64,000 bases of DNA from Paracoccus sp. SMMA_5_TC (GTDB lineage: Bacteria > Pseudomonadota > Alphaproteobacteria > Rhodobacterales > Rhodobacteraceae). Position numbers and translations under genes: made by a program. Of the stretch, positions 51,379-64,000 are shown piece after piece. The notes under the pieces were generated by a model, which saw only the letters and a list, made by a program, of their open reading frames with translations, did not search any database and had not been told where the DNA came from. Where the stretch lies: assembly GCF_009696685.2 (NCBI RefSeq), contig NZ_CP102355.1, forward strand, positions 1,083,001 to 1,147,000, in the 5' to 3' direction. Positions within the stretch are counted from its first letter, which is position 1. Each line of letters opens with the position of its first letter.

Positions 51379-51729
51379 TCATGAATTTTTCGTGGGCATC
51401 GGCGGGGTTTCGCCCGGATCAGTGGCCGGCAGGCGCAGCCACAGGCAATGGCGCAGCCGGCCGCAGGGCCGGGCGTCGCTGATCCAGCCCCCGGGGGCTG
51501 CGCGCCACAGCGCCAGTGTCGCCAGGATATCGTCCAGATCCGCTGCGCGCAGGCCGTGGAAAACATAGCTGGCTCGCCCCGGCGCCTGCATTGTCATCAG
51601 CAGCGGCCGAGATGCGGGCGCGCGCAGGGCTGCGCGGCGCAGCGCGACCTCTGCCGGCAGCCGCGCCGCCAGCAGCTCCGCCAGCTTGTCGGCGCCGGCG
51701 CCTGCGGGCAGGGTCAGGACGGCGGGCAT
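51379..51729 (-). CDS. Hypothetical protein at the end of the cobalamin cluster
   Basis: A 116-residue protein that I do not recognise. It overlaps the cobF 3' end by 16 bases, so it is probably co-transcribed with the cob genes. It has no signal peptide or membrane helix. It contains Leu/Ala-rich helices (ADKLAELLAARLPAEVAL, LDDILATLALW) and a tail GETPPMPTKNS. A link to cobalamin synthesis is by position only. Confidence 0.6.
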   Translation of the reverse strand: MPAVLTLPAGAGADKLAELLAARLPAEVALRRAALRAPASRPLLMTMQAPGRASYVFHGLRAADLDDILATLALWRAAPGGWISDARPCGRLRHCLWLRLPATDPGETPPMPTKNS

Positions 51730-52463
51730 CGGTCCAGCAGATAGATGTCCATGATCCAGCCGTGTTCTGCGCGCGCCCGGGCGCGACGGTCAAGGATCGC
51801 CGGCCCGACCTCGGCCAGCGGTCCCGACAGGCGGATTTCCTGCGCCATACCCAGATAGGCCCCCCACCAGACATGCACCCCCGCCGGGTCCAGGTGGCGA
51901 AAGGAACCTTCGCCATCCAGCATCACCACCAGCCGGTCCACCGCCGGCGGCCAGCCCTTCTCGCGCAGCTGTCGGCCGGTGGTGACCGTCACCGGCGCCG
52001 CCAGCCTGTTCAGCGGGATGCAATGGGCCGCGCACAGCGCCTGGATGGCGGTGATGCCGGGAATGACCCGCAGGCGCAGCGGCAGCCGGCGAGCCACCCG
52101 TTCGGCGATGCGCAGGGTGCTGTCGTAAAGCGACGGATCGCCCCAGACCAGCAGCGCCGGGCGCAGGGCGCGGTGACGGCGGATCTCGGCCTCCCAGCAC
52201 GCGGCGATGGCGTCGTGCCAGCGTTCGACCCCCTGACGATAGCCCTGGGCGCTGTCGCGCTGTGGCATGGCAAAATCGGCGATCGCCGGGGCGCGGTGCA
52301 GCAGGCGGGCGACCAGGGCGCGGCGCAGATCGGCCAGCTCGGCCTTCTCCGCGCCCTTGTCGGGGATCAGGATCAGGTCGGCATCGGCCATTGCGGCCTC
52401 GGCCGCGCGGGTCAGGTGGCCAGGGCTGCCGCAGCCGATGCCGATCAGCGTCAGTTCGATCAT
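51714..52463 (-). CDS. cobF: Precorrin-6A synthase (deacetylating)
   Basis: A 249-residue SAM-dependent tetrapyrrole methylase that methylates C1 of precorrin-5 and releases acetate, a step specific to the aerobic pathway. It has GIGCGSPGHLTRAAEAAMADAD at the N-terminus and LLVWGDPSLYDSTLRI and VIPGITAIQALCA later. The start overlaps cobB by four bases. Confidence 0.94.
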   Translation of the reverse strand: MIELTLIGIGCGSPGHLTRAAEAAMADADLILIPDKGAEKAELADLRRALVARLLHRAPAIADFAMPQRDSAQGYRQGVERWHDAIAACWEAEIRRHRALRPALLVWGDPSLYDSTLRIAERVARRLPLRLRVIPGITAIQALCAAHCIPLNRLAAPVTVTTGRQLREKGWPPAVDRLVVMLDGEGSFRHLDPAGVHVWWGAYLGMAQEIRLSGPLAEVGPAILDRRARARAEHGWIMDIYLLDRCPPS

Positions 52464-53752
52464 GGCGCCGCCCCGATCAGGTGAAAGAAGCTGCCGCTGG
52501 CCAGGCCGCGCACCGAGCCGGTTTCGGCCACCGTCGCGCCATTGGCATCGCAGACCCGCGCCAGCGGCGCGTCGGGCTGGGTCAGGATGGTGGCATAGTG
52601 GAATTCGTGCCCGGACAGCGGCTGCCGATAGGGGCCGGCCAGCGGTTCCGCCCGGCGATAGCCCAGGTGCATCCGCCGCTGCTGATAGCTGGTTTCCAGC
52701 CCCAGCAGCCCGGCCATCTGGTGCCGCTGCCCCTGGGCATCGACCAGGCCCGCGCCCATGACCATATAGCCGCCGCATTCGCCATGCACCGGGCGCGTGC
52801 GGGCAAAACGGCGCAGGCCGTCACGAAAATTCTGCGCCGCGCCCAGCCGGCCGGCGTGCAGCTCGGGATAGCCGCCCGGCAGCCAGCAGGCCCCGGCACT
52901 GTCGTCGGGGGCCTGATCGGCCAGCGGCGAGAACGGCAGGATGGTGGCGCCCGCGGCGCGCCAGCCGGCGATCAGATGCGGATAGACAAAGGAAAACGCC
53001 TCGTCCATCGCCATGGCGATGCGCTCGGCCGGGGGCGGCAGCGGCCGGAAGGGCGCGGGTGCCAGCCCGCCGGCCGCGGCGGCCAAGATGGCGTCGAGGT
53101 CCAGATGCAGGGCGGCGGCCTGGCCCGCACGGGCCAGCAATGCATCCAGCGCCGCATGTTCCCGGGCCTGCACCAGCCCCAGATGGCGTTCGGGCAGCTC
53201 GATCCCGGCGCTGCGCGGCAGCACGCCCAGCACGGCGATGTCCAGCTGCGCGAAGGCCTGCCGCAGCAGCGCCTGGTGCCGGTCCGAGGCGACGCGATTC
53301 AGCACCACCCCGGCCAGGCGGACATCGGCGCGCATCTGGCGAAAGCCCAGCGCCACGGCGGCGGCCGATTGCGCCTGTCCCTGGCAATCCAGCACCAGCA
53401 GCACCGGCCAGCCGGTCAGGGCGGCGATGTCGGCGCTGGCGCCATTGCCCAGCCCGCCGCGGCTGGCCACCCCGTCGAAAAGGCCCATCGAGCCTTCGGC
53501 CAGCGCCAGATCGGCCCCGCCTGCCGCGGCTGTCACCAGATGCGCGATCTGCCCGGGCCCCATCGCCCAGCTGTCGAGGTTATATGACGCCCGCCCCGCC
53601 GCCGCCTGGTGAAAGGCCGGGTCGATATAGTCCGGCCCGCTTTTGAACGGTTGCACCACAACGCCGCGCGCCCGCAGCGCCGCGATCAGCCCCAGCGTCA
53701 CCGTGGTCTTGCCGCTGCCCGATGCCGGGGCGCTGATCACCAGCCCCTTCAT
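52460..53752 (-). CDS. cobB: Cobyrinate a,c-diamide synthase
   Basis: A 430-residue glutamine-dependent enzyme that amidates hydrogenobyrinic acid at the a and c side chains. The N-terminal P-loop ([16 protein letters not shown]) binds ATP. The C-terminal class I amidotransferase carries the catalytic Cys in [14 protein letters not shown] and its His in the GHEFHYATI region. The product is the substrate of the cobaltochelatase CobNST, whose CobN subunit is encoded nearby. Confidence 0.94.
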
Positions 53753-54522
53753 TCGGCGAACCGCGGTGCCGCCCCCACCGGGCGAAAGCGGCGGTCGTAA
53801 TCGCTGGCATAAAGGCGGCTTTCGGCGAAATCCTCGGCCGCAAGGGCCGGGCCCACCAGGATCAGCGCCGTGCGCTCGCGCAGGCCGATCGCGGGGTCCA
53901 GGCTGGCCAGCGTGGCCCGGTGGATGACCTGGTCGGGCCAGCTGGCGCGGAACACCACCGCCACCGGGCAATCGGGCCCGTAATGCGGGGTCAGTTCCTG
54001 ACGGACGCGGTCCAGCACATGCACCGACAGATGGATGGCCAGCGTGGCGCCGGTGGCGGCAAAGGCGGCCAGCGTTTCCCCCGCCGGCATCGCCGAGGCC
54101 CGCCCCGAGGTGCGCGTCAGCACCACCGATTGCGCCACCCCGGGCAGCGTCAGTTCGGCCCCCAGTGCGGCGGCGGCGGCGGCAAAGGACGGCACGCCCG
54201 GCGTCACGTCATAGGGGATGCCCAACGCCCGCAGCCGCCGCAGCTGTTCGCCCATCGCCGACCACACCGACAGGTCGCCCGAATGCAGCCGCGCGACATC
54301 CTGTCCCTGGGCATGGGCGCGGGCGATTTCGGCGATGATCTGGTCGAGATCCAGCGGCGCGGTGTTGACGATGCGCGCCCCCGGCGGGCAATGCGCCAGC
54401 AGCGCCTGCGGCACCAGGCTGCCGGCGTAAAGACAGACCGGACAGGCCGCGATCAGGTCGCGCCCGCGCAGGGTGATCAGATCGGCAGCGCCCGGCCCGG
54501 CGCCGATGAAATGGACGGTCAT
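53749..54522 (-). CDS. cobM: Precorrin-4 C11-methyltransferase
   Basis: A 257-residue tetrapyrrole methylase for C11 of precorrin-4. It has [40 protein letters not shown] and [15 protein letters not shown], which are CobM/CbiF hallmarks. It overlaps cobB by four bases and is overlapped by cobE by four. Confidence 0.95.
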
Positions 54523-54893
54523 GACGGCTCTCCTTCGGCGATGGCGCAGCAGGCCATGCGGTCTGGTGACAGGATGCGGGTGGTCAGCAGCCGCGCGCCC
54601 GGGGCCAGCGCTGCCAGCGCCGCGGCCTCGGCGACCGAGCCGGTGGCGTGGCTGGCCTGAACCCGCGGCGATTGCGTGGGGGTGGCGATGCCCGCGACGG
54701 CGACCGCCAGGATCGGCAATCCACGCTCTCGGGCCAGTTCGCGCAGCGCCGGCGCCGCCGCCTTGTCGGGCGGTGCCGCCAGGGCCTGCGGCGGGCCGGC
54801 AAGGGCGCAGGCGCGATCCAGCGCCGCGGCCAGTGCGGCGGGGGCGGCGGCGGCGCGAAAACCCAGGCCCGCCACCTTCACGGCCAGCTCCAT
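54519..54893 (-). CDS. cobE: CobE, CbiG C-terminal-like protein
   Basis: A 124-residue protein matching CobE/Cbi[14 protein letters not shown] at the N-terminus, [20 protein letters not shown] in the middle and [18 protein letters not shown] near the end. In the anaerobic pathway the CbiG domain opens the C20 lactone; the precise role in the aerobic pathway is still unclear. ATG 54893 overlaps cobL by 16 bases; the frame is open far upstream inside cobL. Confidence 0.88.
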
Positions 54894-56044
54894 TGGGTGA
54901 TGGCGCGGGCCGGGGTCCAGCCGCGCAGCCCGCCCAGGGGGCCGGCCTCTTCCACCGCCAGGCGCAGCAGCCGGCCCCCGCGCCGCGAGTGCAGCTCCAG
55001 CAGCAGGGCCTCGGTTTCCAGGGTCACGGCATTCACCACCAGTCGCGCCGGCGGCAGGGCCGCGATCAGCGCCGCATCGGCGCCGCCGCCGACAAAGATC
55101 GCGTCCGGGGGCGGCAGGCCGGCCAGCACCTGCGGCGCGCGGCCCTCTACCGGCTGCATTTGCCCCGACAGCCCGAAGGCGTCGATATTGGCGCGGATAT
55201 GGTCGAGCCGGTCGGCCCGTGGCTCGACCGTGACCGCCCAGCCGCCGTTCAGGCACCATTCCACGCTGACCGAGCCCGAGCCGCCGCCGATGTCCCACAG
55301 CATCTCGCCGGTCCGCGGCGCCAGCGCGGCCAGCGTCACCGCCCGGATCGCGCGCCGGGTGATCTGGCCGTCATGGGCGAAATGGGCATCCGGCAGGCCG
55401 AAGCCGCGCGGCAGGCCGCTGCCCGCAGGCAGGTGGCGACCGTCCAGCGCCACCGCCACCGGCGCGGCGCAATCGGTCAGGTCAAAGCCCGAGGCCCGGG
55501 TGCGCCGCAGCCGCTCGCGCGGGCCGCCCAGCGATTCCAGAACCACCATCGACGTGGCACCCAGCCCCTGCGCCACCAGCCATTCCGCCAGCGCCCGCGG
55601 GCTGTCGCCGTCGCGCAGCAGGCAGATCGCGCGCGCCCCCCGCGTCATTATCGGCAACAGCCGCGCAAAGGGGGCCGCGTGCAGCCCCAGGCAGACGGTC
55701 TGGTCCAGCGCCCAGCCCAGCCGCGCCGCCGCCAGCGAAAATGTCCCCGGCACCGGAAAGGCGCGCCATTCCGCCGCCGGCAGCGCCTGCGCCAGCAGGC
55801 TGCCGGCGCCGTGCCAGAACGGATCGCCCGACACCAGTGCCGCCACCGGCCGACCGCGCAGCGCCAGCAGCGGCGCGATGTCGAAGGGCACGGGCCAAGG
55901 CCGCCCGTCGCAGCCGGCCAGCGCCAGGTGACGGGGGGCGCCAAAGACGATTTCGGCCCCGGCCAGGGCCTGACGGCTTGCAGGCGGCAGGCCGGCCAGT
56001 CCATCCTCGCCCAGACCGATGATCGATAGCCAGGGTTCAGACAT
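54878..56044 (-). CDS. cobL: Precorrin-6Y C5,15-methyltransferase (decarboxylating)
   Basis: A 388-residue two-domain enzyme. Residues about 1-195 are a CbiE-like tetrapyrrole methylase ([43 protein letters not shown]). Residues about 200-388 are a CbiT-like Rossmann methyltransferase ([17 protein letters not shown], then [11 protein letters not shown]). It methylates C5 and C15 and decarboxylates precorrin-6B. ATG 56044 is the normal start, and its CAT on the plus strand overlaps the ATG of cobK on the other strand. Confidence 0.95.
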
Positions 56045-56780
56045 GACGCGCATCCTCTTGCTGGGCGGCACGACCGAGGCGGCGGCCCTGGCGCGCGCGC
56101 TGGCGGCGGCGGGGATCGCGGCGATCTATTCCTATGCCGGGCGCACCGCCCAGCCGCTGGCGCAGCCCTTGCCCACGCGGGTCGGCGGCTTTGGCGGGGT
56201 CGAGGGGCTGGCCGGCTTTCTGCGCGAACAGCAGATCAGCCATGTCGTCGATGCCACCCATCCCTTTGCCGCTGAAATCAGCCGCAACGCCGTGGCGGCC
56301 TGCGCGGCCACCGGCACGGCGCTGATCGCGCTGGAACGGCCCGCCTGGCAGCCGCAGCCGGGCGACCGCTGGCATGGGGTGCCCGATTTCGCCGCCGCCG
56401 CCCGGGCGCTGCCGGGCGATGGCTCGGCGGTGTTTCTGGCCATCGGCCGACAGAATCTGGCGCCCTTTGTCGGGCTGCATCACCGCTGGACGCTGCGCTT
56501 TGCCGAGGTGGCCGCCCATCCCCTGCGCGACGCCACGCTGATCGTGTCGCGCGGCCCCTATACCGTGGCGGGCGACCGCGAACTGCTGCGCCGCCATGGC
56601 ATCGCCCATCTGGTGGCCAAGAATGCCGGCGGCCGCGCGGCCGAGGCCAAGCTGATCGCCGCGCGCGAACTGGGTCTGCCGGTGGTGATGATCGCCCGCC
56701 CGGCATTGCCGCCGCGCCGGCTGGCCGGATCGGTCGATGAGGTGCTGGACTGGATTCATGTCGCCGACCGCGGGCTGTAG
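56043..56780 (+). CDS. cobK: Precorrin-6A reductase
   Basis: A 245-residue NADPH-dependent reductase of precorrin-6A. It has RILLLGGTTEAAALARAL, VVDATHPFAAEISRNA, FLAIGRQNLAPF and LVAKNAGGRAAEAKLIAARELGLPVVMI. It is the only plus-strand gene in the cob cluster: its start codon overlaps that of cobL and its 3' end overlaps cobJ by 25 bases. ATG 56043 gives the family's normal opening; ATG 56019 is possible. No clear ribosome binding site is seen. Confidence 0.93.
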   Translation: MTRILLLGGTTEAAALARALAAAGIAAIYSYAGRTAQPLAQPLPTRVGGFGGVEGLAGFLREQQISHVVDATHPFAAEISRNAVAACAATGTALIALERPAWQPQPGDRWHGVPDFAAAARALPGDGSAVFLAIGRQNLAPFVGLHHRWTLRFAEVAAHPLRDATLIVSRGPYTVAGDRELLRRHGIAHLVAKNAGGRAAEAKLIAARELGLPVVMIARPALPPRRLAGSVDEVLDWIHVADRGL

Positions 56781-57493
56781 ACCCAGTTGCCGACGCGGCG
56801 GGTGGCGCTGTTGCCGACGATGACCAGCGTGCGCATGTCGGCCATTTCGGGCCGGGCCTCGGCCAGGGTGGTGGTGAGGATGGTTTCATCGGGGGTGGAA
56901 ACGGCGCGGGCAAAGCTGATCAACCGACCGGGGCCGCAGCTTTCGCGCAGGATCTCCAGCGCGCTGGCAAAGCCCTCCGGCCGCGCGCGCGATCGCGGAT
57001 TGTAAAGCGCCATGGCGAAATCGGCGCTGGCCGCCAGCCGCAGCCGCCGTTCGATCAGCGCCCATGGCTTCAGATTGTCCGACAGGTTGATGGCGCAGAA
57101 GTCATGGCCCAGCGGCGCGCCCAGCCGCGCGGCCGCCGCCAGCATGGCGGTGATGCCGGGCAGGATGCGGATATCGGGCGCGACAGATGGGGTGGGGCCG
57201 GCCTCCAGCGCCTCGAACAGGGCGGCGGCCATGGCGAACACCCCCGGATCGCCCGAGGATACCACCACCACCCGCCGTCCCGCCCGGGCCATATCCAGCG
57301 CCTGGGCGGCGCGGGCCAGCTCGACCCGGTTGTCCGAGCCGTGCAGCATCAGTCCCGGCCGCGGCGCGATGCGCGCGACATAGGGGAAATATCCGACCAC
57401 ATCGGTGGCCTCTTGCAGGGTGCGCTGCACCTCGGGGGTAATCAGATCGGCCGCGCCGGGCCCCAGGCCGGCGACGGCGACCCAGCCGCTCAT
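56756..57493 (-). CDS. cobJ: Precorrin-3B C17-methyltransferase
   Basis: A 245-residue ring-contracting methylase. It has [71 protein letters not shown] and ALYNPRSRARP, which are CobJ/CbiH hallmarks. It overlaps cobI by four bases and, tail to tail, cobK by 25. Confidence 0.95.
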   Translation of the reverse strand: MSGWVAVAGLGPGAADLITPEVQRTLQEATDVVGYFPYVARIAPRPGLMLHGSDNRVELARAAQALDMARAGRRVVVVSSGDPGVFAMAAALFEALEAGPTPSVAPDIRILPGITAMLAAAARLGAPLGHDFCAINLSDNLKPWALIERRLRLAASADFAMALYNPRSRARPEGFASALEILRESCGPGRLISFARAVSTPDETILTTTLAEARPEMADMRTLVIVGNSATRRVGNWVYSPRSAT

Positions 57494-58239
57494 TGCGCGG
57501 CCTCGCTCAGGGGGCGGCGGCCGTGGCCATGGACCAGCACCGTGGCGAAATAGGGGCAGGAATGCAGATCGGCCTGCGACAGCCGCAGCAGGCGCTGGTT
57601 CGGCATGGTGCCACGCTCGACCAGCCAGGCGTCGCCCAGCCGGCCGGCGGCGGCCAGCGCGCGGGCGATCTTGGGCAGGTTGCGGCCGGTCTTCATCACC
57701 ACCACCGCATCGGCGGCGGCGATATGGCGGGTCAGGTCGGCCTCGGGCAGGGTGCCCATCAGCACGGTCATGGCATCGTCGCCCCAGGTCATCGGCTGGC
57801 CCAGCGCGTTCCAGCAGCCGGTCATGCCGGGGATGCCGGGGATCACCTCGACCCGGGCGCGGCCCTGCAGCCGGCTGTGCAGATGCATGAACGAGCCATA
57901 GAACAGCGGGTCGCCCTCGCACAGCACCACGATGTCGCCGGCTTGGGCCAGGTCGATCAGACGCGCGCTCCAGTCGTCGTAAAAAGCCGACAGCAGGCGG
58001 TTGTATTCGGGGCTGGCAAAGGGGATTTCCACCGTGACGGGGTATTCCATCGCATGTTCGATCACATCCGGCGCCAGCAGTGGCGCGACGATGCGCCGGG
58101 CCTGGCCGGGGCGGCCGCGCTTGCGGAAATAGGCGATCTGGCGGGCGGCGCGAATGGCGCGATCGGCCCGGACCGAGATCAGGTCCGGATCGCCGGGGCC
58201 AAGACCCGCGCAGATGATCGTGCCGGGGGGCTGGGGCAT
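57490..58239 (-). CDS. cobI: Precorrin-2 C20-methyltransferase
   Basis: A 249-residue methylase that commits precorrin-2 to cobalamin. It has ICAGLGPGDPDLISVRA, VVLCEGDPLFYGSFMHLHSRL, VIPGIPGMTGCWNALG and VVMKTGRNLPKIARAL. It starts two bases after cobH and overlaps cobJ by four. Confidence 0.95.
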   Translation of the reverse strand: MPQPPGTIICAGLGPGDPDLISVRADRAIRAARQIAYFRKRGRPGQARRIVAPLLAPDVIEHAMEYPVTVEIPFASPEYNRLLSAFYDDWSARLIDLAQAGDIVVLCEGDPLFYGSFMHLHSRLQGRARVEVIPGIPGMTGCWNALGQPMTWGDDAMTVLMGTLPEADLTRHIAAADAVVVMKTGRNLPKIARALAAAGRLGDAWLVERGTMPNQRLLRLSQADLHSCPYFATVLVHGHGRRPLSEAAQ

Positions 58240-58241
58240 GC

Positions 58242-58871
58242 TTACTCCTTGCGGCTGGCCAGGGCGTTGACGGCGGCGACGGTGACGGCCGATCCGCCCA
58301 GCCGTCCCCGCACGATCAGCGCGGGCGCGGGCAGGTCGTCCATCAGCGCCTGTTTCGATTCGGCTGCGCCGACAAAGCCGACCGGGCAGCCGATGATGGC
58401 GGCGGGGCGCGGGCAGCCGGGGTCGCGCAGCATGTTCAGCAGGTGAAACAGCGCCGTCGGCGCATTGCCGATGGCGACCACCGCCCCTTGCAGATGCGGC
58501 CGCCACAGTTCCAGCGCGGCGGCGCTGCGGGTGTTGCCCATGCGCGCCGCCAGATCTGGGACGCGCGGATCGTGCAGGGTGCAGATCACAGGGTTGTCGG
58601 CCGGCAGCCGGGCGCGGGTGATGCCCTCGCTGACCATGCGCGCGTCGCACAGGATCGGCGCGCCACCCTGCAGCGCCGCGCGCGCCGTCGCCGCCATGCC
58701 GGGGGAAAAGCGGATGTCGCGTTCCAGCCCCACCAGGCCGGCGGCGTGGATCATCCGCACCGCCACCGGTTCCTCATCCGCGTCAAAGCCGGCCAGCGCG
58801 GCCTCGGCCCGGATGATGGCAAAGGATTGCGCATAGATCGCCGCGCCGTCGGTTTCATAGTGATGCATCAT
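58242..58871 (-). CDS. cobH: Precorrin-8X methylmutase
   Basis: A 209-residue isomerase that moves the C11 methyl to C12, giving hydrogenobyrinic acid. It has AVRMIHAAGLVGLERDIRF with the catalytic His, GAPILCDARMVSEGITR and AIIGCPVGFVGAAESK. It overlaps cobG by 17 bases. The start may be either of two adjacent ATGs. Confidence 0.95.
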   Translation of the reverse strand: MMHHYETDGAAIYAQSFAIIRAEAALAGFDADEEPVAVRMIHAAGLVGLERDIRFSPGMAATARAALQGGAPILCDARMVSEGITRARLPADNPVICTLHDPRVPDLAARMGNTRSAAALELWRPHLQGAVVAIGNAPTALFHLLNMLRDPGCPRPAAIIGCPVGFVGAAESKQALMDDLPAPALIVRGRLGGSAVTVAAVNALASRKE

Positions 58872-59994
58872 CTGCGCTCTGCTGTCGGATCAGATTGGTC
58901 AGGGCGGCCGGGTCCAGATCCCGGCGGCAAGGTGGATCGCCGGCGCGGCCGCGGCGGATCAGGTCATAGCGGCCGGGCGCGGTCGCCACCAGCGTCAGGT
59001 CGCAGGCGGCGGGCTGGGCGCAACCCTTGGCGCAACCGCTGACATGCAGGCTGCCAGGTGCCAGTGGCGCCAGCGCCCGCGCAAGGTCGCGGGTGGTGCC
59101 CCTGGCCTGCGGGCAGCCGGGCGCACCGGTGCAGGCATGGCTGCGCAGCAGCGGATCGCCGGGGGCCTCGATGGCCCCCAATATCCGGGCCCCCGCCTCG
59201 GCACCGCCCTCGATCAGCAGCATCCGCCACGGGGTCAGGCGCAGCGGCGCGGCGATCGCCGCCAGCTGTGCGGCGGTGATCTGACCGAAGGCAAAGCCCA
59301 GCAACCGGCCCTGCGGCAGCGCCCCGGGCTGGGGTCTGGGTCCGGCCTGCGGCGGAGGGCCGGGCCGCGCACCGGGCGGGCGGGGGGCGCGCGCGGCCAG
59401 ATCGCGCATCCTGCCCCGACGCGTCCCGTTGCGGGTGATGAACCAGCGCGCCAGTGCCAGCGCCTCGGCCACCGGGTCGGCGCCGGCCAGATGCCAGTCG
59501 GCGCCGTCGGGGTGAACGGTCCAGCCCAGGTCCCGGGGGATCAGCCGGATGTCGGCCGGCGCCTCGGCCAGCAGCGGTGGTGCCAGATCGACGGCAAAGC
59601 CGAATTTCCCCGGCAGATCGGGGGCGTCGCCGGCGGCCAGCCGCCGCGACAGCTCCGCCGCCAGCCGCCAGGCCGGACCACCCGGGGCGGCGAAAGGGTT
59701 CAGCAGCACATTGCGCCGCGCCTCGGCGGCGGGGCTGTCGTCCAGCAGTCCCAGCCCGCCCAGGGTGGCGATGGCCAGGGCATGGCCTTGGGCGTCCAGG
59801 CCGCGCAGCTGCAGATGCGCCCGCTGGGTCAGGTCGATCAGCCCATTGCCCAGCCGCGCCGAAACCTCGGCAATGGCCCGGACCTGCGCCGGCAGCAGCC
59901 GGCCGTTCGGCGGCCGGATGCGCAGGATCAGCCCGTCGCCCGATTGCATCGGCCGCAGCGCGCCGGGACACCAGCCCTTGATCTCGAAGCTCAT
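58855..59994 (-). CDS. cobG: Precorrin-3B synthase
   Basis: A 379-residue nitrite/sulfite-reductase-like iron-sulfur enzyme that uses O2 to form precorrin-3B, defining the aerobic pathway. The four cluster cysteines are in CTGAPGC and SGCAKGC. It also has RPPNGRLLPAQVRAIAEVS and RAHLQLRGLD. The middle has a Pro/Arg-rich linker near residue 215. It overlaps cobN by four bases and cobH by 17. Confidence 0.92.
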   Translation of the reverse strand: MSFEIKGWCPGALRPMQSGDGLILRIRPPNGRLLPAQVRAIAEVSARLGNGLIDLTQRAHLQLRGLDAQGHALAIATLGGLGLLDDSPAAEARRNVLLNPFAAPGGPAWRLAAELSRRLAAGDAPDLPGKFGFAVDLAPPLLAEAPADIRLIPRDLGWTVHPDGADWHLAGADPVAEALALARWFITRNGTRRGRMRDLAARAPRPPGARPGPPPQAGPRPQPGALPQGRLLGFAFGQITAAQLAAIAAPLRLTPWRMLLIEGGAEAGARILGAIEAPGDPLLRSHACTGAPGCPQARGTTRDLARALAPLAPGSLHVSGCAKGCAQPAACDLTLVATAPGRYDLIRRGRAGDPPCRRDLDPAALTNLIRQQSADDASL

Positions 59995-62900
59995 GCGCCC
60001 ACCTCGGCCAGGATCGAGTTTCGCCGCGACACCCACAGGCCGCTGTCCAGCAGCCGCGCGAAGAGGTTCCGCATCGCCGCCAGCGCGGCGGGGTTTTCCC
60101 GGGCCATGAAATCGACCAGATCGGGCCGGCCCAGGGTGGCGTCGTGGTAAAGATCGAACAGATGTCCCGGCACCACCCCGGCCAGTTGTGCAAAGGCCGC
60201 CAGATGCTCAAGCGTCGCCGCGATTTCCGCCGCGCCGCGATAGCCATGGCGCATCATGCCGTCGGCCCAGGCCGGGTTGGCGGCGCGGGCGCGCAGGACG
60301 CGGGCGATTTCCTCGGTCAGGCTGCGGGCACGCGGGGCCTCGGGGCGGGTGGCGTCCAGATGATACAGCGCCGGGACGGGGGCACCGATCCGGGCCATGG
60401 CGGCGGCGAATCCGGCCTCGTGCCCGGCATAATCGGCGGCCAGCAGCAGATCGCTTTCCGGCAGGTCCTGGGCGTGGACAAAGGCATCCGCCGCCGCCAG
60501 CCTGGCTTGCAGCGCCTGCGGACGATGGCGGATGACGCCGTCTGCGCCGATGGCATGGGCCGATGCCGCCAGCCAAGCCTCGCCCGCGGCTAGCCGCGCC
60601 TCGGCCGTCAGCTCGGCACAGGGATCGGCCATCGCCAGGCCGAAGCGGCCCGGCGCCGGGCCAAAGACCCGCGGCGCCAGCGTCAGATAGGGGTTGTCGG
60701 CCGGGGTTTCCGCGCGCCGGGCCAGCATCGCTGCGCCCATTTCAAACAGCTGCGCAAGGCCGGGGAACACATCCCTAAACAGCCCCGAGACCCGCAGCGT
60801 GACGTCGATGCGCGGCCGGCCCAGTTCCGCCAGCGGCAGGATTTCCACCCCGGTCACGCGCCCGGTCGCCTCATCCCAGCGCGGCGCCATCCCGGCGAGG
60901 TGCAGCGCCATCGCGAAATCCTCGGCCGCGGTGCGCATGGTGGCGCTGCCCCACAGATCGACGACAAGGCCGCGCGGCCAGTCGCCGTGGTCCTGCAGAT
61001 GCCGGCGCAGAAGTTCCTCGGCCAGGCGGATGCCCTGGGCATGGGCGTTGCGGGTGGGCACGGCGCGCGGATCGACGGTATAAAGGTTGCGCCCCGTGGG
61101 CAGGACATCGAGCCGCCCCCGCGCCGGCGAGCCCGAGGGCCCGGGCGCCACCCGCCGCCCGGTCAGCGCCCGATCCAGCCCCTCGGCCTCGCCCGGGGCC
61201 GTGCCATAGACATGCAGCCCGTCGCCGAAGCGGCTGTCCTTGAGATCGCACAGGAAGCGATCGATCCGCGGGATCGCCTCGGCCGGGGCGGCATCGGCGG
61301 GCAGGCCCAGATCGGCCTCGACCCCGGCGGCGCGGGCCTCGTCGCGGATGGCCAGCACCAGCCGGTCGCGCCGCCGCGGGTCCAGCCCGTCGGCGGTCGA
61401 ATATTCGTCTAGCAGCCGTTCCAGATGCGCCAGGTTGGCGGGCAGCGCGCTGGTCCGCAGCGGCGGCGGCAGATGGCCCAGTGTCACCGCCGACAGCCGG
61501 CGCTTGGCCTGGGCGGCCTCGCCGGGGTCGTTGACGATGAAGGGATAGACCATCGGCAGATCGCCCAGCAGCGCCTGTGGCCAGCACTGCTCCGACAGTG
61601 CCACCGACTTGCCCGGCAGCCATTCCAGCGTGCCATGCGCGCCCATATGCACGATGACATCGGCCTGCCGGCGCAGCCACAGGTAAAAGGCCACATAACC
61701 GTGGCACGGCACCCGCGTCAGGTCGTGATAATCCTGGGCCCGGCGGTCGGCCTGCCCGCGTTCGGGTTGCAGCGCCACCAGGGCGTCGCCACAGGCGATT
61801 GCTGCAAAGCCGAAGCCCGCCGGGTCGGGCTCGCCCCAGGCCGCGAACAGCTGCGCCCGCAGCGCCGCCGGCAGATCCTCCAGCGCCGCGAGGTAATCGG
61901 CCAGCGGCCAGTGCAGCCGCGCGCTTTCCAGCTGTCGGCCCAGGCCCTGGTGGTCGATCCCCAGCATCGCCCCGGCCGAGGCCAGCGCATCGAGGCCGAC
62001 GGCATGGGCCAGTTGATGGCTTTTCCCCGGATAGGTCGACAGCACCACCGCCCGCCGCAAGGGTGCCTCGCCCGCTTCGGTTGCCGCCCGGGCCAGCCGG
62101 TGCCAGGCGCGGATGCGGCCGACGGCGCGGGTAATGGCGGCATGGTCGGGGGCGTGGATCTGGCGGGCGAATTGCAGCGCCGGGTCGCGATCCTGCGCGG
62201 CCTTGAAGCTGATCGCGCCCAGAAAGATGCGGCCATCGACCTCGGGCAAGACCACATGCATGGCCAGATCGGCGGCAGAGAGGCCGCGCTCCTCTGCCTG
62301 CCACAGCGCGCGGGGCGCGGTGGCCATCGCCATCTGGAACACCGGGCAATCGGCGCCGTCAAAGGGGGTGGCCCCGGCATCGTCGCGGGCCGAAAAGGCG
62401 GTCAGGTTGACCACCGCCGCCAGACCCGGCAAATGCGGTGCCAGCCACCGGCCCAACCCCGGCTGGCGCAGCGAGGGCGCGAACGCCCCGGTCGCGGCAA
62501 AGCCCGCCGCCCGCAGCGCCGCGATCAGCGCATCGACCGGCGCCATGTCGGCCGCCGCCAGATAGCTGCGGTAGAAGCTGACCAGCACCGGACGCGCTCC
62601 CGGCAGTGGCGCCGCGATCACCCCCCGTTCGGGGTCGTAAAAACCATGCGACGGCAGTTCGGCCTGCCCGATCACCTCGGGCGCCTGCAACCCTGCGGCG
62701 CGGGCCAGTTCCGTCAGCGCCATCTGCGCGGCCACGGCGCCGCCCTGATCGCACAGCTGCGTCAGCCGCCTCAGCTGCGCGACCGGCAGCGTCGACAGCC
62801 GGTCCAGCGCCGGGTCGGGGCGGCCGTCGCCCGGCAGCAGCGCCAGCGCGATGCCGCGACGGCGGGCCAGATCCTGCAGACTGGCGACGCCATAGGGCCA

Positions 62901-63176
62901 ATAGCTTTCGCCGCCGATCAATCGCACCAGCACCGCCCGCGCGCCGGCCAGCGTGGTGTCGCAATACTGATCCACCGAAACCGGGTGCCGCAGCGCCGCC
63001 AGATTGCACAGCCGCAGCGCGGGCAGCTGGCCCCCGGCGCGATGCCAGCCGGCGGCAAAGGCGCCAAGGTCGCTGTCGGAAAATGACAGCACCACCAGAT
63101 CGGCCGGATCCTGGCCGGGGTCGGTCGGCACCTCCAGCTCTTCCAGACCCTGGGTGTCGCGGAACACCACATGCAT
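59991..63176 (-). CDS. cobN: Cobaltochelatase large subunit CobN
   Basis: A 1061-residue CobN/BchH-family protein that inserts Co2+ into hydrogenobyrinic acid a,c-diamide with CobS and CobT, which are not in this window. Landmarks are VLSTYPGKSHQLAHAVGLD, HMGAHGTLEWLPGKSVAL, HVYGTAPGEAEGLDRAL and RGLVVDLWGSATMRTA. It is somewhat shorter than the classical ~1275-residue CobN, but no frame break is visible. ATG 63176 follows 20 bases after cobW. Confidence 0.94.
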   Translation of the reverse strand: MHVVFRDTQGLEELEVPTDPGQDPADLVVLSFSDSDLGAFAAGWHRAGGQLPALRLCNLAALRHPVSVDQYCDTTLAGARAVLVRLIGGESYWPYGVASLQDLARRRGIALALLPGDGRPDPALDRLSTLPVAQLRRLTQLCDQGGAVAAQMALTELARAAGLQAPEVIGQAELPSHGFYDPERGVIAAPLPGARPVLVSFYRSYLAAADMAPVDALIAALRAAGFAATGAFAPSLRQPGLGRWLAPHLPGLAAVVNLTAFSARDDAGATPFDGADCPVFQMAMATAPRALWQAEERGLSAADLAMHVVLPEVDGRIFLGAISFKAAQDRDPALQFARQIHAPDHAAITRAVGRIRAWHRLARAATEAGEAPLRRAVVLSTYPGKSHQLAHAVGLDALASAGAMLGIDHQGLGRQLESARLHWPLADYLAALEDLPAALRAQLFAAWGEPDPAGFGFAAIACGDALVALQPERGQADRRAQDYHDLTRVPCHGYVAFYLWLRRQADVIVHMGAHGTLEWLPGKSVALSEQCWPQALLGDLPMVYPFIVNDPGEAAQAKRRLSAVTLGHLPPPLRTSALPANLAHLERLLDEYSTADGLDPRRRDRLVLAIRDEARAAGVEADLGLPADAAPAEAIPRIDRFLCDLKDSRFGDGLHVYGTAPGEAEGLDRALTGRRVAPGPSGSPARGRLDVLPTGRNLYTVDPRAVPTRNAHAQGIRLAEELLRRHLQDHGDWPRGLVVDLWGSATMRTAAEDFAMALHLAGMAPRWDEATGRVTGVEILPLAELGRPRIDVTLRVSGLFRDVFPGLAQLFEMGAAMLARRAETPADNPYLTLAPRVFGPAPGRFGLAMADPCAELTAEARLAAGEAWLAASAHAIGADGVIRHRPQALQARLAAADAFVHAQDLPESDLLLAADYAGHEAGFAAAMARIGAPVPALYHLDATRPEAPRARSLTEEIARVLRARAANPAWADGMMRHGYRGAAEIAATLEHLAAFAQLAGVVPGHLFDLYHDATLGRPDLVDFMARENPAALAAMRNLFARLLDSGLWVSRRNSILAEVGA

Positions 63177-63196: not shown

Positions 63197-64000
63197 TCAG
63201 CCGGTCAGCGCGGCGCGGATCGCGACCGGGTCGATCGCGTCATGTTCGGCGATCACCACCAGCCGCGAGCGGCGCGGTTGGTCGCCCCATGGACGGTCGT
63301 ATTGATGGCGCACCCTTTCCCCCACCGCCTGCACCAGAAGCCGCAGCGGCTTGCCGGCCACCGCCACATGGCCCTTGACCCGCAGGATGTCGCGTTCGCG
63401 CGCCAGCCGCTGCAGGCGTGCGGCCAGATCGGCCGGATCGGCGATTTCGGGCAGGTCGATCACCACGCTGTCGAAATCCTCGTGTTCGTGATCGTCGGCG
63501 CCGTCGTGATGGCTGGGGCGCGCGTCCAGGTCATCCTCGGCCGCGGCGCCCAGACCCAGGATCAGCCGCGGATCGATGACGCCATCGGTCATCGCCAGCA
63601 TCGGCAGCGCCCGCGGCGCCTCGGCGGCGATGGCGGCACGGGCGGCGGCCAGCCCCTCGGGGCCTGCCAGATCGGCCTTGGACAGCAACACGATGTCGGC
63701 GCAGGCGATCTGATCCTCGAACACCTCGGCCAGCGGGGTGTCGTGGTCCAGCCCCGGATCGGCGGCGCGCTGGCGGGCGACGGCCTCGGGGTCGGGGGCA
63801 AAGCGGCCGGCCGCCACCGCCTCGGCATCGGCCAGGGCGACGACGCCGTCCACGGTGATGCGCGAGCGGATCGCCGGCCAGTCGAAGGCCTTGAGCAGCG
63901 GCTTGGGCAGCGCCAGCCCCGAGGTCTCGATCAGGATGTGATCGGGCCGCACCGGCAGCGCCATCAGCTTTTCAAGTGTGGGGATGAAGTCGTCGGCGAC
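63197..64000 (-). CDS. cobW: CobW-type GTPase metallochaperone (partial)
   Basis: The frame enters from the right edge (first visible residues VADDFIPTLEKLMALP); the P-loop is outside the window. Visible motifs are the COG0523 block ILIETSGLALPKPLL, the guanine-specificity motif LLSKADL, a histidine/acid-rich loop (HHDGADDHEHED) likely to bind metal, and the C-terminal domain with RVKGHVAVAGKPLRL. CobW proteins deliver cobalt to the chelatase. It precedes cobN, and any B12 riboswitch would lie upstream, outside the window. Confidence 0.9.
   Translation of the reverse strand, partial: VADDFIPTLEKLMALPVRPDHILIETSGLALPKPLLKAFDWPAIRSRITVDGVVALADAEAVAAGRFAPDPEAVARQRAADPGLDHDTPLAEVFEDQIACADIVLLSKADLAGPEGLAAARAAIAAEAPRALPMLAMTDGVIDPRLILGLGAAAEDDLDARPSHHDGADDHEHEDFDSVVIDLPEIADPADLAARLQRLARERDILRVKGHVAVAGKPLRLLVQAVGERVRHQYDRPWGDQPRRSRLVVIAEHDAIDPVAIRAALTG

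Follow-up and report, generated by a model that had tools for sequence, protein, structure and literature searches.

Noncontiguous operons, which are interrupted by a gene of the opposite orientation, are represented by the men operon of S. aureus (Saenz-Lahoya et al. 2019 PNAS, cited here through the review PMC7154746); in the review's account, the mRNA of the inverted gene pairs with an internal untranslated region (PMC7154746). Here, we analyzed a 64,000-nt window (the whole stretch of DNA under study) from Paracoccus sp. SMMA_5_TC, in which cobK is inverted inside a cluster of cobalamin genes. To our knowledge, the inversion itself is already known: Shearer et al. (J Bacteriol, 1999) reportedly found cobK and cobJ of Paracoccus denitrificans to be convergently transcribed, and their paper is said to describe neither an antisense frame nor a noncontiguous operon. 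The new element is a selected antisense frame, not the inversion, and a search of the open-licence PubMed Central literature returned no paper in which an antisense frame, conserved and translated, is described for cobK or for any noncontiguous operon. We consider it very probable that this locus is a noncontiguous operon whose (−)-strand RNA crosses cobK in antisense and would be translated there through a bridge open reading frame (ORF) coupled to both cobJ and cobL.

Arrangement of cobJ, cobK, and cobL and its recurrence

The inverted gene, cobK (precorrin-6A reductase; positions 56043 to 56780, (+) strand), was recognized by PF02571 (E = 8.4e-72) and NF005968 (308.6 bits; cut-off, 231). 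It lies between cobJ (precorrin-3B C17-methyltransferase; 56756 to 57493, (−) strand; TIGR01466, 293.7 bits; cut-off, 246.35) and cobL (precorrin-6Y C5,15-methyltransferase; 54878 to 56044, (−) strand), whose product carries CbiE/CbiT domains by NCBIfam naming (TIGR02467, 111.1 bits, over the cut-off; TIGR02469, 71.6 bits; cut-off, 78.3). The first-pass annotation had described cobK as the only cob gene on the (+) strand, and this holds, with cobW, N, G, H, I, J, L, E (putative), M, B, and F all running leftward. Its two overlaps were likewise found as described: the start codons of cobK (ATG, 56043 to 56045, (+)) and cobL (ATG, 56044 to 56042, (−)) have 2 nt in common within the palindrome CATG (56042 to 56045, both strands), and the 3′ ends of cobJ (56756, (−)) and cobK (56780, (+)) overlap by 25 nt (56756 to 56780, both strands).

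Absent from that annotation was an ORF of 240 codons on the (−) strand (56037 to 56759), taken from the ORF list, which is the codon-aligned antisense of cobK, tiles the gap between cobJ and cobL, from the stop of the former to the start of the latter, and is open across relatives. Its start overlaps the cobJ stop TGA in the sequence ATGA (56756 to 56759, (−)), and its own stop TGA overlaps the cobL start in ATGTCTGA (56037 to 56044, (−)), so that the frame ends 8 nt into cobL, with the TGA placed 5 nt downstream of the first nucleotide of the cobL ATG. We refer to this frame as the bridge ORF.

The remainder of the cluster is also on the (−) strand. To the right of cobJ lie cobI (57490 to 58239; TIGR01467), cobH (58242 to 58871; NF006136), cobG (58855 to 60036; TIGR02435, 214 bits, below the cut-off of 234.8), cobN (59991 to 63176; NF008973), and cobW (63197 to 64000, running past the window to 64231; TIGR02475, with PF02492 on L181, a stretch of the same genome). 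To the left of cobL lie an ORF (54519 to 54881) that we take to be a putative cobE from its position, with zero matches to family models, followed by cobM (53749 to 54522; TIGR01465), cobB (52460 to 53752; NF002204), and cobF (51714 to 52466; TIGR02434). NCBIfam names were assigned to CobW, N, H, I, J, K, L, M, B, and F. Rfam returned zero riboswitches inside the window; its only matches were two cobalamin riboswitches on the (−) strand to the right of it, one at L181:2664-2864 (window coordinates 64664 to 64864) heading DUF1636-cobW-cobN-cobG-H-I-J and one farther right at L181:5810-6006 (67810 to 68006). An ORF of 116 aa that overlaps the end of cobF (51382 to 51729, (−)) is DUF1636-like (30.0 bits; cut-off, 31.6), as is the ORF heading the operon (117.3 bits), and there are possibly two DUF1636 proteins within one operon.

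PF02571 had matches in 131 of 149 genomes sampled at the level of the order, in 106 of 289 at the level of the class, and in 79 of 249 at the level of the phylum, these samples having genomes in common. We assembled a first set of 216 loci with distinct cobK (221 before identical cobK DNA was merged; L181 and L200 were dropped, having no cobK by the criterion used) and called a locus embedded if it had the order cobL, inverted cobK, cobJ. The first set contained 105 embedded loci, i.e., 69 of 111 in the window's family (35 genera) and 36 of 105 elsewhere; because the loci were best-scoring search results and hand-picked stretches and not a random sample, 69 of 111 is no estimate of frequency. 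A second set of 80 loci with named organisms contained 79 embedded loci, 77 of them new relative to the first set (2 of the 80 were already in it, and L234 is cut off before cobL), bringing the total to 182 embedded loci with distinct cobK, i.e., 182 cases of an opposite-strand gene between genes of one operon, among which four pairs are at least 95% alike. The named loci include Paracoccus, Ruegeria, Bradyrhizobium, Sphingomonas, Novosphingobium, and Acetobacter, the betaproteobacteria Curvibacter, Delftia, and Rhodoferax, and also Aidingimonas. The earlier suggestion of a related inversion in other alphaproteobacteria is confirmed by the orientation of cobJ, which is opposite to that of cobK in all 111 loci with cobJ as the recognized right-hand neighbor.

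The exact CATG overlap (gap of −2) was present in 56 of 69 embedded loci of the window's family, 7 of 36 other first-set loci, and 58 of 77 named loci, and the same 2-nt overlap appears in the public annotation of both Paracoccus plasmids inspected; the overlap of the cobK and cobL starts is more than chance. The gaps are also locked modulo 3, but we discounted this as evidence, since in-frame moves of starts and stops preserve the lock anyway. Non-embedded cobK genes have a different neighborhood: at L099:3989-5847 (window's family), cobK follows cbiD on the same strand, CbiD having been identified there, and in all 8 loci inspected a same-strand ORF of 349 to 433 codons ends beside cobK. Such cbiD-cobK clusters may be a second way to build the pathway. 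A spacing control drawn from non-embedded cobK was dropped, as it had been measured to a gene ~1.19 kb away with an unrecognized ORF between.

Avoidance of antisense stops and the borders of the open frame

Because an open antisense frame in a GC-rich genome may arise by chance, we counted stops. Stops of the codon-aligned (−) frame correspond to the cobK codons TTA, CTA, and TCA, and expected counts were derived from the codon usage of the neighboring cob genes at the same locus. In the window's family, embedded cobK genes contained 2 antisense stops compared with 83.2 expected (69 loci), whereas non-embedded genes contained 105 compared with 102.5 expected (40 loci). The other embedded loci of the first set had 31 compared with 52.4 expected (36 loci). 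Across all 176 embedded loci with a cobK GC content of at least 0.55, whole cobK genes held 6 antisense stops compared with 186.3 expected. When GC content was matched (0.57 to 0.66), the numbers were 0 compared with 104.3 for embedded loci (n = 48) and 98 compared with 88.2 for non-embedded loci (n = 38; 23 non-embedded loci with fewer than 300 reference codons were left out). The embedded loci of the window's family were depleted in each of the three codons (TTA, 0 observed and 14.9 expected; CTA, 1 and 33.9; TCA, 1 and 34.3), while the non-stop controls ATA (31 and 22.5), AGA (20 and 11.0), AGT (41 and 23.6), and TTG (262 and 253.1) were not depleted. Likewise, the 176 embedded loci used CTA in 2 of 4,049 CTN codons, TCA in 3 of 753 TCN codons, and TTA once compared with 640 TTG, whereas the six remaining four-fold boxes had 4.4 to 8.4% A-ending codons; for comparison, the 93 non-embedded loci had 63 CTA among 1,981 CTN and 57 TCA among 552 TCN.

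The codon-aligned (−) frame was open in 86 of 104 embedded loci, compared with 0 of 104 and 1 of 104 for the other two (−) frames. In the window's family it was open in 64 of 69; in the remaining five, a stop coincides with the chosen start of cobL or immediately precedes it, and one of them, L205, has another near the bridge start. Among control genes of these loci, observed and expected stops were 204 and 175.0 for cobL, 100 and 87.6 for cobJ, 88 and 80.0 for cobG, and 98 and 96.4 for cobB; cobI (56 and 77.0), cobM (47 and 64.7), and cobH (27 and 38.0) gave low ratios of 0.71 to 0.73, so expected counts may be ~30% off, which is far below the effect in cobK. Poisson P values overstate independence because the relatives have common ancestry, yet four-fold sites differ by 0.47 between the closer pairs. 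Judged by these counts, the openness of the antisense frame across embedded cobK is under selection.

The borders of this avoidance coincide with the neighboring genes. In the 176 embedded loci (cobK GC content, at least 0.54), the interval that opens at the cobJ stop and closes at the start of cobL held 2 stops compared with 182.3 expected, and cobK codons beyond it held 4 compared with 4.0 expected. The four outside stops lie in the cobK tail past the cobJ stop (L021, L243, L264, and L294), and the two inside stops are in L205, two codons after the start, and in L201, at codon 1 of cobK, where cobL begins. Arrangement, overlaps, selection for openness, and exact borders are all direct readings of the DNA.

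At the cobJ end, the register of RTGA is occupied by ATG (n = 130) or GTG (n = 29) in 159 of 182 embedded loci and by neither in 23, and in L205 a stop follows the canonical bridge start directly. Since CAT and CAC are the antisense of ATG and GTG, a C-terminal His of CobK records the bridge start, and it was present in 61 of 69 embedded loci of the window's family and 32 of 36 others; among non-embedded loci, the corresponding counts were 5 of 42 and 6 of 69. Shine-Dalgarno-like tetramers preceded the bridge start in 57 of 182 loci, compared with 89 of 910 control positions in cobJ. At the cobL end, 128 of the 176 loci have the bridge stop 5 nt downstream of the first nucleotide of the cobL start codon (ATGNNTGA), and in 162 it lies within 12 nt of that codon. 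Even where cobK and cobL are 12 to 155 nt apart, the bridge stop of 21 of 31 loci is no more than 12 nt from the start of cobL, the frame extending through the spacer (e.g., L003 and L010, with 76 nt, and L274, with 137 nt). Findings from the first set were reproduced on the 77 named loci outside that set.

Embedded loci with a GC content below 0.55 depart from this pattern. The frame was closed in five of six (L049, L132, L289, L290, and L292, of which the last three are at least 98% alike in cobK) with cobK still inverted, and in the sixth, L129, it was open inside the cobJ-cobL interval. Therefore, the bridge is dispensable and can be lost.

Stops would do no harm in an untranslated antisense spacer. 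That they are missing precisely from the cobJ-cobL interval suggests that ribosomes come in from cobJ and exit at cobL, and such passage would require a (−)-strand RNA across cobK. We propose that this RNA extends from cobJ across all of cobK (in antisense) into cobL, that ribosomes ending cobJ would restart at the overlapping RTGA and translate the codon-aligned antisense frame of ~240 codons, and that their termination at ATGNNTGA would bring them to the start codon of cobL, where translation of cobL would begin. Transcription across cobK, translation, and coupling are thereby predictions from conserved DNA features. The bridge ORF would be kept for its openness and not for its product, its role being to retain ribosomes on the transcript, as protection from Rho-dependent polarity and RNA decay, and to pass them on to cobL. 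Rho shielding and ribosome delivery are the two usual explanations for translating across such a region, and which of them might be the reason here is the least certain part of the proposal. We put aside the idea of Rho sites as support, because the (−)-strand RNA of cobK, with a C/G ratio of 1.01 compared with 0.95 for cobJ and 0.90 for cobL, is not C-rich, and nothing in it indicates strong Rho sites. The first-pass annotation had offered an antisense transcript through all of cobK as the second of its two options; this gains comparative support from the stop-free, hooked frame, which does not, however, identify the promoter. It is also likely, in our judgment, that a translated bridge free of sequence demands has been kept very long across Rhodobacterales and several other proteobacterial groups purely for the crossing of ribosomes.

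Antisense regulation, a bridge protein, and a promoter inside cobK as alternatives

Under the proposed scheme, the promoter of cobK would lie within cobL or past it, and cobK, being on the other strand and without a B12 riboswitch of its own within the window, would escape riboswitch control in cis. The two RNAs may regulate each other, through excludon-like interference or RNase III, perhaps alongside the bridge. If both RNAs exist, full complementarity follows, and the men operon, as the review portrays it, offers a precedent (PMC7154746), but antisense repression of cobK upon induction of the operon would presumably be counterproductive for a single pathway. We regard such mutual regulation as possible, albeit doubtful.

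Less probable is that the antisense ORF encodes a functional protein, i.e., that it is a genuine antisense gene with complete overlap. Its start and stop are operon-like, the frame between them is open, and 16 database proteins are similar to its product (E = 3.7e-39 to 4.4e-8); these have neither names nor domains and are presumably calls of the same antisense frame. The product itself had no Pfam match and is rich in Q, R, G, and H. Were the protein important, synonymous sites of cobK would be constrained, but four-fold divergence across 62 pairs was 0.472 for cobK, resembling cobJ (0.508), cobL (0.483), and cobI (0.450). Among distant relatives, antisense identity slightly exceeded that obtained by synonymous-codon simulation (0.332 compared with 0.297); in a comparison across genes, the ratio of observed to simulated identity (36 to 40 loci per simulation) was 1.123 for embedded and 1.066 for non-embedded cobK, but an equal excess was found in the presumed noncoding antisense frames of cobL (1.129), cobI (1.134), and cobJ (1.122). 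Neither four-fold divergence nor the simulations detected selection on the amino-acid sequence of the bridge. As far as the alignments can tell, openness and hooks are selected and the amino-acid sequence is not detectably so, and we consider a functional protein unlikely.

A further alternative, the other option of the first-pass annotation, is that cobL-E-M-B-F are read from a promoter inside cobK, with no RNA across cobK. Synonymous divergence is slightly low in the first 30 cobK codons (0.43 and 0.46, compared with 0.484 overall). However, a scan of positions 54500 to 57700, which knows the sigma-70 consensus only, returned no promoter-like site, and this alternative leaves unexplained both the frame that is stop-free from the very cobJ stop and the start and stop hooks at its two ends. 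The only terminator-like site in the same region lies inside cobL and not between cobJ and cobL. As an extra source of RNA, a cobL promoter inside cobK would be compatible with the bridge; alone, it would not explain the open frame, and we hold such a promoter with no RNA across cobK to be very improbable.

On the other side of the start overlap, cobL codons 1 to 30 (55955 to 56044), just upstream of cobK, showed a synonymous divergence of 0.36 and 0.32 compared with 0.492 overall. This dip is possibly the promoter and ribosome-binding site of cobK; the 5′ ends of genes often have such dips. An alignment of the DNA upstream of cobK (63 loci) revealed no convincing promoter motif, only a Shine-Dalgarno-like stretch.

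Finally, although the highest-GC loci are expected to have an open frame by chance (e.g., 15.1 of 20 at a GC content of 0.7 to 0.8), the idea that high GC content and codon bias alone keep the frame open can be dismissed almost entirely given the GC-matched comparison of embedded with non-embedded loci, the retention of A-ending codons in other boxes, and the end of stop avoidance at the cobJ stop.

Comparison with known systems

If a translated bridge is correct, this would be the first noncontiguous operon with an antisense part maintained by translation, and perhaps an instance of a general rule for the persistence of inverted genes inside operons. Noncontiguous operons have been described from RNA data; here, evolution would have recorded one, with base precision at both borders. 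An operon could then cross an inverted gene without polarity, an antisense strand could be translatable for the sake of the RNA and not of a protein, and antisense frames in bacterial genomes would gain a role besides coding and noise. The loss of TTA, CTA, and TCA from an embedded gene would provide a cheap detector for similar operons.

The locus resembles antisense overlapping genes in its long codon-aligned ORF, fully antisense to a known gene and kept open by selection; unlike them, it carries a bridge for which we detected no purifying selection on the encoded protein. It resembles translationally coupled pairs with RTGA and ATGNNTGA overlaps (see the review PMC12548453) in that starts overlap upstream stops at both ends of the bridge (159 of 182 loci at the cobJ end and 128 of 176 at the cobL end). 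It departs from such pairs in that its middle member is the reverse side of another gene, apparently without selection on its amino acids. With the noncontiguous men operon, as outlined in the review, it has in common an inverted gene inside one operon, with a predicted antisense (−)-strand RNA in our case. Two differences stand out against that outline: the inverted cobK belongs to the same pathway as the operon around it, and where the antisense region of the men operon is untranslated, the selected, open, and coupled frame of the cob locus points to translation, apparently through a bridge hooked to both neighbors.
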